Assembly: GCA_025924315.1 (NCBI GenBank)
Contig: JAICIO010000001.1
Location: 1-64,000 of the forward strand
From: Phycisphaerae bacterium
GTDB lineage: Bacteria; Planctomycetota; Phycisphaerae; Tepidisphaerales; Tepidisphaeraceae
Direction: 5' to 3'
Length of the DNA stretch: 64,000 bases
The notes under the pieces were generated by a model. The model was given only the letters and a program-made list of their open reading frames with translations, had not been told where the DNA came from and did not search any database. Position numbers and translations under genes: made by a program. Shown here piece after piece: positions 22,422-26,058 of the stretch (within the stretch, counting starts at the first letter, position 1; each line of letters opens with the position of its first letter).

Positions 22422-22892
22422 TTATTCCGGCGAGCCTTTGGCCATGTCGTACACCCAACTCTGCGAAACCGGCTGCCAGTCCAGCAGCTCATCGCTCTTG
22501 AAGAAGAGGCCCAGCTCGCGCGTCGCACTCTCCGGCGAATCCGATCCGTGAATCAGGTTGAACGAGTTCGAAACGCCGTAATCGCCGCGAATCGTTCCGG
22601 GTTCGGCTTTGGATCCGAAGGTCGCGCCCATCATCTTTCGCGAGATCGCGATCGCGTCTTTCCCCGCCAGCGCCAGCACGACAACCGGCGAGCTGGTCAT
22701 GAACTTCACGAGGCCCGGGTAGAACGGCTTGCCCTTGTGCGGCTCATAGTGCGTCTCTGCCAGCGATTGCGGAATCTTCATGAGCTTGGCGCCCACGATC
22801 TGCAGGCCCTTCTTTTCAAATCGCGTGATGATTTCACCGATGAGATGGCGTTGAACGGCGTCGGGCTTGAGGATGATGAGCGTGCGTTCCAT
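22422..22892 (-). CDS. ndk: Nucleoside diphosphate kinase
   Basis: Transfers the gamma phosphate of ATP to other nucleoside diphosphates. The start is the ATG at 22892 (MERTLIILKPDAVQRHLIG), giving 156 residues, slightly longer than the usual 140-150. Conserved residues include KPDAVQRHLIG near the N-terminus, GTIRGDYG (about residue 99-106) and the active-site histidine in NLIHGSDSPESA. An open frame extends upstream antisense to the next gene, but the family alignment fixes the start here. Confidence 0.95.
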   Translation of the reverse strand: MERTLIILKPDAVQRHLIGEIITRFEKKGLQIVGAKLMKIPQSLAETHYEPHKGKPFYPGLVKFMTSSPVVVLALAGKDAIAISRKMMGATFGSKAEPGTIRGDYGVSNSFNLIHGSDSPESATRELGLFFKSDELLDWQPVSQSWVYDMAKGSPE

Positions 22893-23036
22893 GATGTCTC
22901 CGAATGAAAGTGGGCTGAGGGTTATATCCGATGGGGTGTTTCGAGGAAAGAAGCTGCTTGTACCCTGCGGGATTTCCAGAATTTCGCGCAAACTCCGGAC
23001 GTGTAAGAATCGACAAGGTTGATGACCGGATACCTC

Positions 23037-24701
23037 ATGAGCGAACCGACAGACGCCGAGCTGATCCGACGCATTCGCGAAAGCGGTGATACTTCCGCGT
23101 TTGGGCAGCTCGTCAAGCGGTATCAGGGACATGTGTACGGCCTTGCCTATTCGCTGCTGCGCGACTGGGCGGAGGCGCAGGATCTTACGCAGGAGACCTT
23201 CGTCCGGGCGTATGTGAACCTCGGCGCCCTGCGCGAGCCGGATCGGTTTGCAGCGTGGCTCAGGCGCGTGGCGTTTGGGACGTGCATGGACTGGCTCAAG
23301 GCATATCGGCCGGAGTTGTATCGATCGTTGGGCGATTCGCCGGAACTCGATGATGTCCCGGATACGGTCGATGCAATGACCCCGCCGGAGCTGGCGGCGC
23401 GGTCGGAGATCGCGGCAAACGTGGTTGCGGCGGTCAACAACCTGCCGAGCAAGTACCGCCTGCCCCTGATGATGTTTCATCTCGATGGCTTGTCGTACGA
23501 AAAGGTGGCGGAGTTTCTCGACATTCCGCTGGGCACGGCCAAGTGGCTGATCCATCGCGCCAAGCAGATGCTGAAACCCGCGCTCAAGGCTTATGCGACG
23601 GAGGTGAGCGCCGTGGTGGAAGAAACATTTAATGAGCACAAGCTGCCGAAGGAATTCGCGGAGCAGATTGGCGCGCTGGTGAAAGCTGCCGGGGCAGGCG
23701 ATGCCAAGACGGTGAAGATGTTGCTCGACGCCGATCCGAATTTGGCCGCGAAGAAAGACGAGCGGGGTGTGCCACCGATCCGCGAGGCGGGGTCGCACGG
23801 CCATCGGGAGATTGTCGATCTTCTGCTCGCGCGCGGGGCGGACATCAATGCGAAAGATGACGGCTCGCAGTGGTCGGCCCTGAACCTCGCTGCGATTTAT
23901 GGTCGAATGGATGTCGTCCAGTTCCTCGTCGAGCGCGGCGCGGAGGTGGACATCTTCACAGCGTGTTCGCTGGCGAAGCTCGACCGCGTGAAGGAGCTTC
24001 TGGCGCGCGATCCGCGCCTGGTTCATACGTACGGGCCGGATGGCGCCACGCCGCTTCATTTCGCGGTGGGGTGGCACGTTGAAAAGCTGGCGCGCGAGCA
24101 GGGGATCGAGCCGACAGCAATTGCTCAACTGCTTCTCGATCGTGGCGCGGATGTGAACGCGAAGGATTCGTGGCACGGCGGAAGCGTTTTGAAATGGGCG
24201 GGCGCGGGAACGGGAAACCTGTTGTCGACGTTCATTCGCGCGCACGGCGCGGTGCTGGATGTTTTTGAGGCGAGCGAAATTGGCGACCTGAATCGCCTCG
24301 CTGAATTGATTGAGAAGGATTCATCGCTGGTCGATGCGCGGACGCCGTCGCGCGACATCATGGGCGGGGCAAACACGCCGCTGCATCGCGCGTGTTGGCA
24401 CGACCGAGCCGAGGCGGCCGCATTTCTGCTCGACCGCGGCGCGGATATCGAGGCAAAGGACGGCGATCACGGCGCGACTCCGCTGATCTATTGCGCCTGG
24501 CGCGCGAATTTGGAAACGGCCCGACTTCTCCTCGATCGCGGGGCGAACATCGACGCGACGAACAAATACGACGAGACTTCGCTCAAGATCGCCAGCATGG
24601 GCGCATCCGGTGGCTTGAAACGGCACCATTGGGCGCGACCGGCCGATAAATACGGCCCGCTCGTCGAGCTCCTCGATGCCGCTTCACGAAAAGCGAACTG
24701 A
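23037..24701 (+). CDS. ECF sigma factor fused to ankyrin repeats
   Basis: Residues about 5-80 form sigma region 2 (FGQLVKRYQGHVYGLAYSLL, AQDLTQETFVRAYVNL) and about 110-175 region 4 (LPSKYRLPLMMFHLDGLSY, FLDIPLGTAKWLIHRAKQML). A linker leads to six or more ankyrin-type repeats (VDLLLARGADINAKD, AQLLLDRGADVNAKD, ATPLIYCAWRANLETARLLL) filling residues about 205-540. The fusion suggests that protein-protein contacts of the repeats control or target the sigma factor, so no separate anti-sigma may be needed. The start could also be ATG 23022. It is divergent from ndk. Confidence 0.9.
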   Translation: MSEPTDAELIRRIRESGDTSAFGQLVKRYQGHVYGLAYSLLRDWAEAQDLTQETFVRAYVNLGALREPDRFAAWLRRVAFGTCMDWLKAYRPELYRSLGDSPELDDVPDTVDAMTPPELAARSEIAANVVAAVNNLPSKYRLPLMMFHLDGLSYEKVAEFLDIPLGTAKWLIHRAKQMLKPALKAYATEVSAVVEETFNEHKLPKEFAEQIGALVKAAGAGDAKTVKMLLDADPNLAAKKDERGVPPIREAGSHGHREIVDLLLARGADINAKDDGSQWSALNLAAIYGRMDVVQFLVERGAEVDIFTACSLAKLDRVKELLARDPRLVHTYGPDGATPLHFAVGWHVEKLAREQGIEPTAIAQLLLDRGADVNAKDSWHGGSVLKWAGAGTGNLLSTFIRAHGAVLDVFEASEIGDLNRLAELIEKDSSLVDARTPSRDIMGGANTPLHRACWHDRAEAAAFLLDRGADIEAKDGDHGATPLIYCAWRANLETARLLLDRGANIDATNKYDETSLKIASMGASGGLKRHHWARPADKYGPLVELLDAASRKAN

Positions 24702-24748: not shown

Positions 24749-24922
24749 ATGGATTTGTTGCTGATCGGAAGCATGGTCGTCGGGCTCTGGGCATTCTTCG
24801 CCATCGTTGGCAACGAGCGCCAGCGCCGGGTGCAAAAGCTGCAATACGAGCTGGATTTGGCGGCTCGACGCCAAGCCGAAGCGAACGCCCAAAAGGCCGA
24901 AGAAATCCCCGTTTTAGGCTGA
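24749..24922 (+). CDS. Small membrane protein with coiled-coil tail
   Basis: 57 residues from the ATG at 24749: an N-terminal membrane span (LLLIGSMVVGLWAFFAIVG) then a charged helix (NERQRRVQKLQYELDLAARR). A longer upstream frame exists but would add an odd polar leader. The compact span-plus-helix layout suggests a real small membrane protein, perhaps related in role to the next gene, which also combines membrane spans with charged helices. Unrecognised family. Confidence 0.5.
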   Translation: MDLLLIGSMVVGLWAFFAIVGNERQRRVQKLQYELDLAARRQAEANAQKAEEIPVLG

Positions 24923-25026: not shown

Positions 25027-26058
25027 GTGGACAACCTGAATCATTTGACGGAGGTTAGCCGCGTGGAACAACAACGATCGACCGCGTCTTTCGTCTGGGT
25101 GTATCCTGTCGCGTTTGTCCTTTCCCTCATCATTCTGGCTGCCGGCGTTTACCTTGTCGCGAAGTACCAATCATGGACGCTTCTGGCGGCCGGTTGCGTC
25201 AGCGTCACGGGTGTGCTGGCTGTCTGGCCGCTCGCGCTGACGATGCAGGCCAACCGGCAGTGCAATGAAGACCAGATCAAAGCCGCCCTCACGCCGATCA
25301 ATGAGCGGCTCGAGCAGTATTCCGTGATGCTGCATACGATCAGCGATCAACAGCTTCTGAGCGATCGCGCCAAGAGCGTCGCCTTCCGCGAAAAAGATCG
25401 CGACGCGGTGCGCCGAGCCCTGCAGGAAGAAATCGCCAAGCAGGATTGGGAAGCGGCGCTCGTGCTCGTGGACGAGATGGAACGGGCGTACGGATATCGC
25501 CAGGAGGCCGATCGGTTCCGCCAGCAGATCAACGCCGCCCACGATCAATTCTCGCGTCGCCAGATCGCGGACGTCGTTTCGGTCATCGACCGTCACACGC
25601 GGTCAGAACAGTGGCAGGCGGCCGTGCGTGAGGCGGATCGGCTCCGCCAGATGTTCCCGAATAACGATCAGGTGAAGAACCTGCCGGTCGAGATTGAAAA
25701 TCGTCGCCAGGCGCACAAGAAGCAGTTGCTCGACAGCTGGAACGAGGCAGTCAATCGCAAGGACGTCGATGGCGGGATCGAGATTCTCAAGAAGCTCGAT
25801 TTGTATCTGACGCCCTCGGAGGCCGAATCGATTCAGGAACAGGCCCGCAACATCTTCAAGCAGAAGATGGAAAATCTCCGCACGCAGTTTTCGGTGGCGG
25901 TGCAGGATCACAACTGGCAGGAAGCGATCCGCGTCGGCGAGTCGATCATGATTGACTTCCCGAACACGCAGATGGCGAAGGAAGTCCGCGAGAAGATGGA
26001 CGCCTTGCGTCAACGCGCCAACGAGCCCGCCAGCAAGACCGCGATGGCGAGTGCCTGA
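25027..26058 (+). CDS. Membrane protein with long helical/TPR-like domain
   Basis: 343 residues from a GTG start. Two membrane spans near residues 22-45 and 48-68 (VYPVAFVLSLIILAAGVYLV; LLAAGCVSVTGVLAVWPLAL) are followed by a 270-residue charged helical region with TPR-like pairs (DWEAALVLVDEMERAYGY; NWQEAIRVGESIMIDFP). Probably an inner-membrane scaffold with a large soluble domain. No enzyme signature is present. The GTG at 25027 follows GAGGT, which may serve as the ribosome site of an upstream frame. Confidence 0.68.
   Translation: MDNLNHLTEVSRVEQQRSTASFVWVYPVAFVLSLIILAAGVYLVAKYQSWTLLAAGCVSVTGVLAVWPLALTMQANRQCNEDQIKAALTPINERLEQYSVMLHTISDQQLLSDRAKSVAFREKDRDAVRRALQEEIAKQDWEAALVLVDEMERAYGYRQEADRFRQQINAAHDQFSRRQIADVVSVIDRHTRSEQWQAAVREADRLRQMFPNNDQVKNLPVEIENRRQAHKKQLLDSWNEAVNRKDVDGGIEILKKLDLYLTPSEAESIQEQARNIFKQKMENLRTQFSVAVQDHNWQEAIRVGESIMIDFPNTQMAKEVREKMDALRQRANEPASKTAMASA

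Follow-up and report, generated by a model that had tools for sequence, protein, structure and literature searches.

A Phycisphaerae ECF sigma factor with a C-terminal ankyrin-repeat array and its proposed control by a protein partner

The 64,000-nucleotide stretch of Phycisphaerae DNA analysed here (the window) encodes an ECF sigma factor, P0001, which carries a long C-terminal array of ankyrin repeats in one intact open reading frame of 554 amino acids (23037..24701, + strand). P0001 belongs to a small duplicated family, whose members are probably switches controlled by other proteins, and is not a sequencing accident. The favoured reading, held with moderate confidence and by analogy with other extended ECF sigma factors, is that P0001 is soluble and contains its own regulator. 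Its ankyrin part would dock a cytoplasmic protein encoded away from this locus, and binding or release of that protein would switch competence for RNA polymerase.

In the ORF listing of the window the frame begins with the ATG at 23037 and ends with the stop codon at 24699-24701, and two alternative starts in frame, ATG at 23022 and TTG at 23019, could lengthen the protein by 5-6 residues. The N-terminal part contains Sigma-70 region 2 (amino acids 25-89, 23109..23303, + strand; Pfam Sigma70_r2 PF04542, E 1.2e-15), which scores 61.4 bits in a region 2 scan of its own genome, and Sigma-70 region 4 (amino acids 129-179, 23421..23573, + strand; Pfam Sigma70_r4_2 PF08281, E 6.8e-11). Both matches, as well as that to Ank_2 in the C-terminal part, are far over the curated cut-offs. 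P0001 is an ECF (group 4) sigma factor, with regions 2 and 4, no region 3 or 1.1 and a sigma part of ~180 amino acids, and the NCBIfam model TIGR02937 (sigma70-ECF) scores it at 89.7 bits against a cut-off of 42.9. No specific NCBIfam ECF subfamily (SigW, RpoE, SigM, plancto1 and gvs1 among others) reaches its curated cut-off; the closest is SigW, with 118.3 against 209, and Sig-70_plancto1 gives 61.9 against 183.75. Behind region 4 lies a linker (amino acids 185-210, 23589..23666, + strand), defined by alignments and with the pattern E.FNEhKLPpeFaerV, which is common to P0001, its paralogues and relatives from genomes G386, G434 and G506 and from contig C30 of its own genome. Profile matches extend beyond position 200 and so take in part of the linker.

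About ten ankyrin repeats occupy residues 205-553 (23649..24695, + strand), as judged from Pfam, AlphaFold2 helix pairs, Foldseek and a consensus scan. With borders drawn by hand, the repeats lie approximately at 205-242, 243-276, 277-306, 307-335, 336-380, 381-410, 411-444, 445-478, 479-512 and 513-551, and insertions are present within those at ~336-380 and ~513-551. Pfam ankyrin families span residues ~205-510 (Ank_2, E 8.2e-38), and the AlphaFold2 model has ten successive helix pairs across 205-553, mostly with pLDDT of 72-94 and with dips near 390-400 and 435-450. This model comes from a thin alignment, and confidence in its sigma half is low (pTM 0.48). The best Foldseek matches in the PDB are DARPins and ankyrins, with E values of about 1e-13 to 1e-9. 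In the consensus scan, four repeats are clearly beyond shuffled sequences (scores 52-85) and two are weaker (30 and 23), the shuffled control having a 95th percentile of 21 and a maximum of 35; the repeats outside these six are visible solely in the AlphaFold2 model and the helix pattern. The tandem units of ~33 amino acids with paired helices, recognized by Pfam, AlphaFold2 and Foldseek, are those of ankyrin-repeat proteins. The initial annotation had described one frame with complete sigma-2 and sigma-4 regions and at least six ankyrin repeats in an array of 330 residues, a description which holds, as the array measures ~330-345 residues and the repeat count was conservative.

With mfd and ligA of the window as training genes, the coding log-likelihood is positive in the P0001 frame from ~23007 to ~24537, where this frame is the best of the six almost throughout, and it gives no change of frame at the sigma-ankyrin junction. 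The signal is near zero at the extreme 3' end of the ORF, which is not taken as the end of the gene because the modelled ankyrin helices run to about residue 553. Two paralogues on other contigs, L010 and L011, have the same sigma-linker-ankyrin order, which makes a sequencing fusion very unlikely, and since they are only 54% and 48% identical to P0001 across the matched parts, they are old duplicates and not assembly copies. A sequencing fusion of two genes, a case in which the initial annotation said that its claim would fail, is therefore rejected, as is an assembly fusion, on the architecture of the paralogues with their same junction and on the unbroken coding frame. That P0001 is a non-functional chimera, either an assembly join or a decaying gene, is likewise highly improbable: the 262-contig assembly that supplies the contigs, the missing close fusion homologues in 25 same-family genomes and the frame of a relative from genome G561 (L048), which is broken inside sigma-4, would be in line with it, but the frame of 554 amino acids is intact, the coding signal covers most of its length and both paralogues are still open at such low identity.

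L010 (contig C90, 488 amino acids) consists of a sigma part and an ankyrin part, and L011 (contig C17, 475 amino acids) of a sigma part, about two repeats and a region of ~160 amino acids. This last region of L011 (865-1479, - strand, C17) has no match in Pfam, NCBIfam or the PDB, and may resemble a GyrI-like effector domain. P0001 and L010 are identical at 71 of 95 positions in sigma-2 (75%), at 46 of 57 in sigma-4 (81%) and at 14 of 26 in the linker (54%), and their ankyrin blocks are only ~27-32% identical. The simplest reading of these sequences is a conserved output with a diverged input surface, a pattern that would be expected if the two proteins read different inputs. The three paralogues have no neighbour genes in common, and inspection of their upstream regions by eye revealed no shared promoter motif.

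The divergent neighbour of P0001 is a nucleoside diphosphate kinase gene (22422..22907, - strand; Pfam NDK, E 3.5e-55), which starts 129 bp from the start of the ECF gene and lies outside the system, and farther upstream Pfam recognizes a B12-binding protein and an FAD enzyme. An antisense ORF of 607 amino acids (22422-24245) is rejected as a true gene, its 3' part being the kinase gene and the rest overlapping the P0001 frame, which has clear sigma and ankyrin homology and a higher coding score than the antisense. On the other side, 47 bp downstream of P0001, lies an ORF of 57 amino acids with one apparent transmembrane helix (24749..24922, + strand), followed by a gene for a membrane protein of 343 amino acids (25027..26058, + strand), which has no Pfam match and is conserved together with the short ORF. 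Weak homologues of the short ORF are found in six same-family genomes, and at least four of these have a homologue of the 343-amino-acid protein (49-53% identical) within the flank examined. No homologue of the sigma-ankyrin protein was found in the relatives carrying this pair. Because the pair recurs in relatives without this sigma factor, it is a conserved unit of its own, an unnamed gene pair of the family, and the short ORF is excluded as a partner and rejected as a mini anti-sigma factor.

Among these neighbours (the kinase, the B12-binding protein and the independent pair) Pfam recognizes no anti-sigma gene, in agreement with the initial annotation, which had seen none adjoining. The same absence could suit a C-terminal part that is itself a true anti-sigma factor, fused to the sigma factor and freed by proteolysis as in the IutY/ECF52/53 type. 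P0001 has no transmembrane segment (19-residue hydropathy maximum of 1.1), no Pfam anti-sigma domain is matched anywhere in it and its extension is plain ankyrin, similar to stand-alone ankyrin proteins, which make such a fusion scarcely credible. The built-in anti-sigma factor that the initial annotation had considered is thus unsupported in this strict sense.

P0001 is best read as controlled through a partner protein, by analogy with ECF42 and its TPR extension and with ECF57 and its WD40 extension. In the proposed mechanism, the sigma-2/sigma-4 half would bind core RNA polymerase and choose the promoter, and the C-terminal ankyrin solenoid would be the docking surface for a cytoplasmic protein encoded elsewhere. 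The linker and the first repeats are probably packed against sigma-4, and binding or release of the partner may alter this contact, so that the sigma factor would toggle between states competent and incompetent for RNA polymerase. Autoinhibition that is lifted by the partner is the favoured sign, and each of the three paralogues would respond to a different partner but use similar promoters.

Ankyrin repeats usually bind proteins and their arrays are generic binding scaffolds, which would also suit a simple tether, in which the ankyrin part brings the sigma factor, and RNA polymerase with it, to some place in the cell, or a distant soluble protein sequesters the sigma factor, with no conformational change of activity. 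The ankyrin part also resembles stand-alone ankyrin proteins encoded in this genome, and its fast divergence is consistent with changing targets; both features point the same way. However, the conserved linker adjoining sigma-4 suggests an intramolecular contact, and a tether is considered unlikely. Direct sensing of a small molecule or of the redox state by the ankyrin part, with or without help from the linker, could also be its role, which would make P0001 a one-component sigma factor like ECF41 or CorE, and some linker-bearing relatives do have domains of ligand-binding descent, namely VOC (L042), ATP-synthase-beta-like (L012) and PheS-like (L098) domains. Against this, the usual ligands of ankyrins are proteins, and the ankyrin part of P0001 is poor in cysteine (only Cys 310, 453 and 486) and has no obvious metal site, so direct sensing is judged very unlikely. 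A switch operated by a docked protein partner is the reading that is preferred.

A second set of linker-bearing ECF sigma factors, which is more distant from P0001, groups with support of 92/88 in the sigma tree. The extensions in this set are HEAT repeats (L049/L054), a PheS-like domain (L075/L098), an ATP-synthase-beta-like domain (L012), a VOC/glyoxalase domain (L042, from Paenibacillus) and, in L043 from Tolypothrix, a zinc finger of the ClpX type. L044 (genome G169) seems by eye to have an acetyltransferase-like sequence, which has no Pfam match. P0001 is possibly, and only tentatively, one of a broader undescribed "chassis" set of ECF sigma factors, in which a conserved sigma part and linker would bear soluble sensor modules grafted in each lineage, acting as single-chain switches without an anti-sigma factor. 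Ankyrin, HEAT, VOC, PheS-like and degenerate ATP-synthase-beta-like domains and the ClpX-type zinc finger would be the modules of this set.

Some of these proteins are of interest in their own right. L098 (genome G506, 1507-2847, - strand) joins an ECF sigma factor and a similar linker to a domain similar to PheS, the phenylalanyl-tRNA synthetase alpha (TIGR00468, E 1.5e-13). L043 (2501-3322, + strand), located on a mobilizable Tolypothrix plasmid, has its C4 zinc finger of the ClpX type at the C-terminus of the ECF sigma factor. L012, on contig C30 of the genome of P0001 (469-2118, - strand), consists of an ECF sigma factor, the linker and an ATP-synthase-beta-like region (atpD, E 7e-47), whose P-loop, read by eye, is SMQGVGRI in place of GGAGVGKT; judging from these residues, this region is probably a pseudo-enzyme that serves as a sensor. 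Extended ECF sigma factors are common in this genome: it has 42 sigma region-2 loci, and for ~18 of these the frame is 320 amino acids or longer. Most of the other extended ones seem by eye to have a transmembrane segment followed by other domains, and one (L035) has FG-GAP repeats according to Pfam.

The ankyrin version is rare. A profile built from sigma part, linker and first repeats finds only three genes, all from the genome of P0001, among 26 genomes of the order in which nearly all candidates were scored, and no ankyrin fusion was found elsewhere in 298 genomes of the class and 392 of the phylum, where scoring was limited to a few top candidates from each genome. With a profile of sigma part and linker, the sigma clade is found in 3 of the 392 Planctomycetota genomes (G000, G386 and G561, all with E of 1e-75 or lower), and a gap then extends down to generic ECF sigma factors at 1e-40; among the best few candidates from each of these genomes, the ankyrin version is seen only in that of P0001. 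In a tree of 55 sigma domains, P0001, L010, L011, L047 and L048 form a clade with support of 99/94, within which P0001 groups with L010 (100/89), L047 and L048 are their sister group (100/98) and L011 lies outside. The relative from G386 (L047/L097) has a sigma part 56% identical to that of P0001 and the same linker. It is the nearest intact relative outside the genome of P0001 (L097, 1826-3547, - strand), and its cysteine-rich extension of 330 amino acids has no Pfam or NCBIfam match and no recognised ankyrin repeat. As the nearest relative from another genome is without recognised ankyrins, the sigma clade does not need ankyrins specifically.

Searches of other sequence sets gave no homologue of P0001 in viral contigs and no plasmid record that spans 80% of it, and a scan of genome contigs gave three matches to the ankyrin part only. 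Pfam PSCyt1 ("Planctomycete cytochrome C") occurs ten times in the genome of P0001, whose phylum is read on that ground as Planctomycetota. In the literature searched, which covers a minority of subscription papers, no ECF-ankyrin fusion was found. P0001 would belong to a known kind, the partner-controlled ECF sigma factors with repeat extensions, and ankyrin appears to be new as a type of extension.

Two other loci of the sigma and ankyrin type, L099 (1396-4122, contig C3) and L100 (1804-4977, contig C19), are similar one-strand cassettes of an ECF sigma factor, a membrane protein, another ORF and an ankyrin protein. Each cassette ends with a small protein that has one apparent transmembrane segment and three ankyrin repeats, and the membrane protein of the C3 cassette looks by eye like an anti-sigma factor of the zinc-finger type. 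Ankyrin genes lie near sigma genes in three pairs in the genome of P0001, against ~0.95 expected by chance, which weakly suggests that ankyrins participate in its ECF pathways. A protein-binding solenoid fused to a sigma factor is a direct pull-down bait for the signal, and P0001 and L010, with closely similar sigma parts and unlike ankyrin parts, offer a natural domain-swap setup that separates input from output. If the modules are indeed interchangeable, such sigma factors would be a template for engineered single-chain switches.

Regulatory extensions are present in at least 26 ECF groups, 15 of them unstudied (review, PMC8999054). For the TPR extension of ECF42 and the WD40 extension of some ECF57 members, protein interaction is the proposed mode of action, and in ECF42 a contact between sigma-4 and the proximal extension is predicted (PMC8999054). 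ECF42 proteins such as Sven_0747, with a TPR extension of ~200 amino acids, resemble P0001 in having long soluble C-terminal helical repeats and no adjacent anti-sigma gene (PMC8999054). They differ in the type of repeat, no TPR family being among the Pfam matches of P0001, in their YCII-type neighbours, none of which is seen at P0001, and in being widespread, whereas the P0001 clade is rare. ECF57 proteins, for example WP_015250107.1 of Singulisphaera, also have a C-terminal interaction domain of the repeat type (PMC8999054). In some ECF57 members this domain is made of WD40-like repeats, which Pfam does not match in P0001, and the cysteine pair proposed for sigma-2 and sigma-4 of this group is absent from P0001, the sigma part of which has Cys83 only. 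Singulisphaera is itself a planctomycete.

ECF41 (SigJ) shares with P0001 the absence of an anti-sigma factor and a soluble C-terminal regulatory domain, but this domain has a SnoaL-like fold of the small-molecule type instead of a ten-repeat ankyrin solenoid, and no SnoaL match, the feature of ECF41/56, is found in P0001 with Pfam. IutY/ECF243, ECF52 and ECF53 also join sigma factor and regulator in a single chain, whereas P0001 is cytoplasmic and without transmembrane segment or anti-sigma/ZAS domain; many apparently transmembrane-extended ECF sigma factors are present in its own genome. Stand-alone ankyrin proteins (L027 and L033 of the same genome, H1-H5 of plasmids) align to the ankyrin part of P0001, up to nearly its whole length, with ~28-39% identity, but have no sigma domains. 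By the extension and cysteine features compared, P0001 is outside ECF41, ECF42, ECF57 and the fusions with transmembrane anti-sigma factors, and by analogy it would work most like ECF42, with its TPR repeats, and ECF57, with its WD40 repeats.
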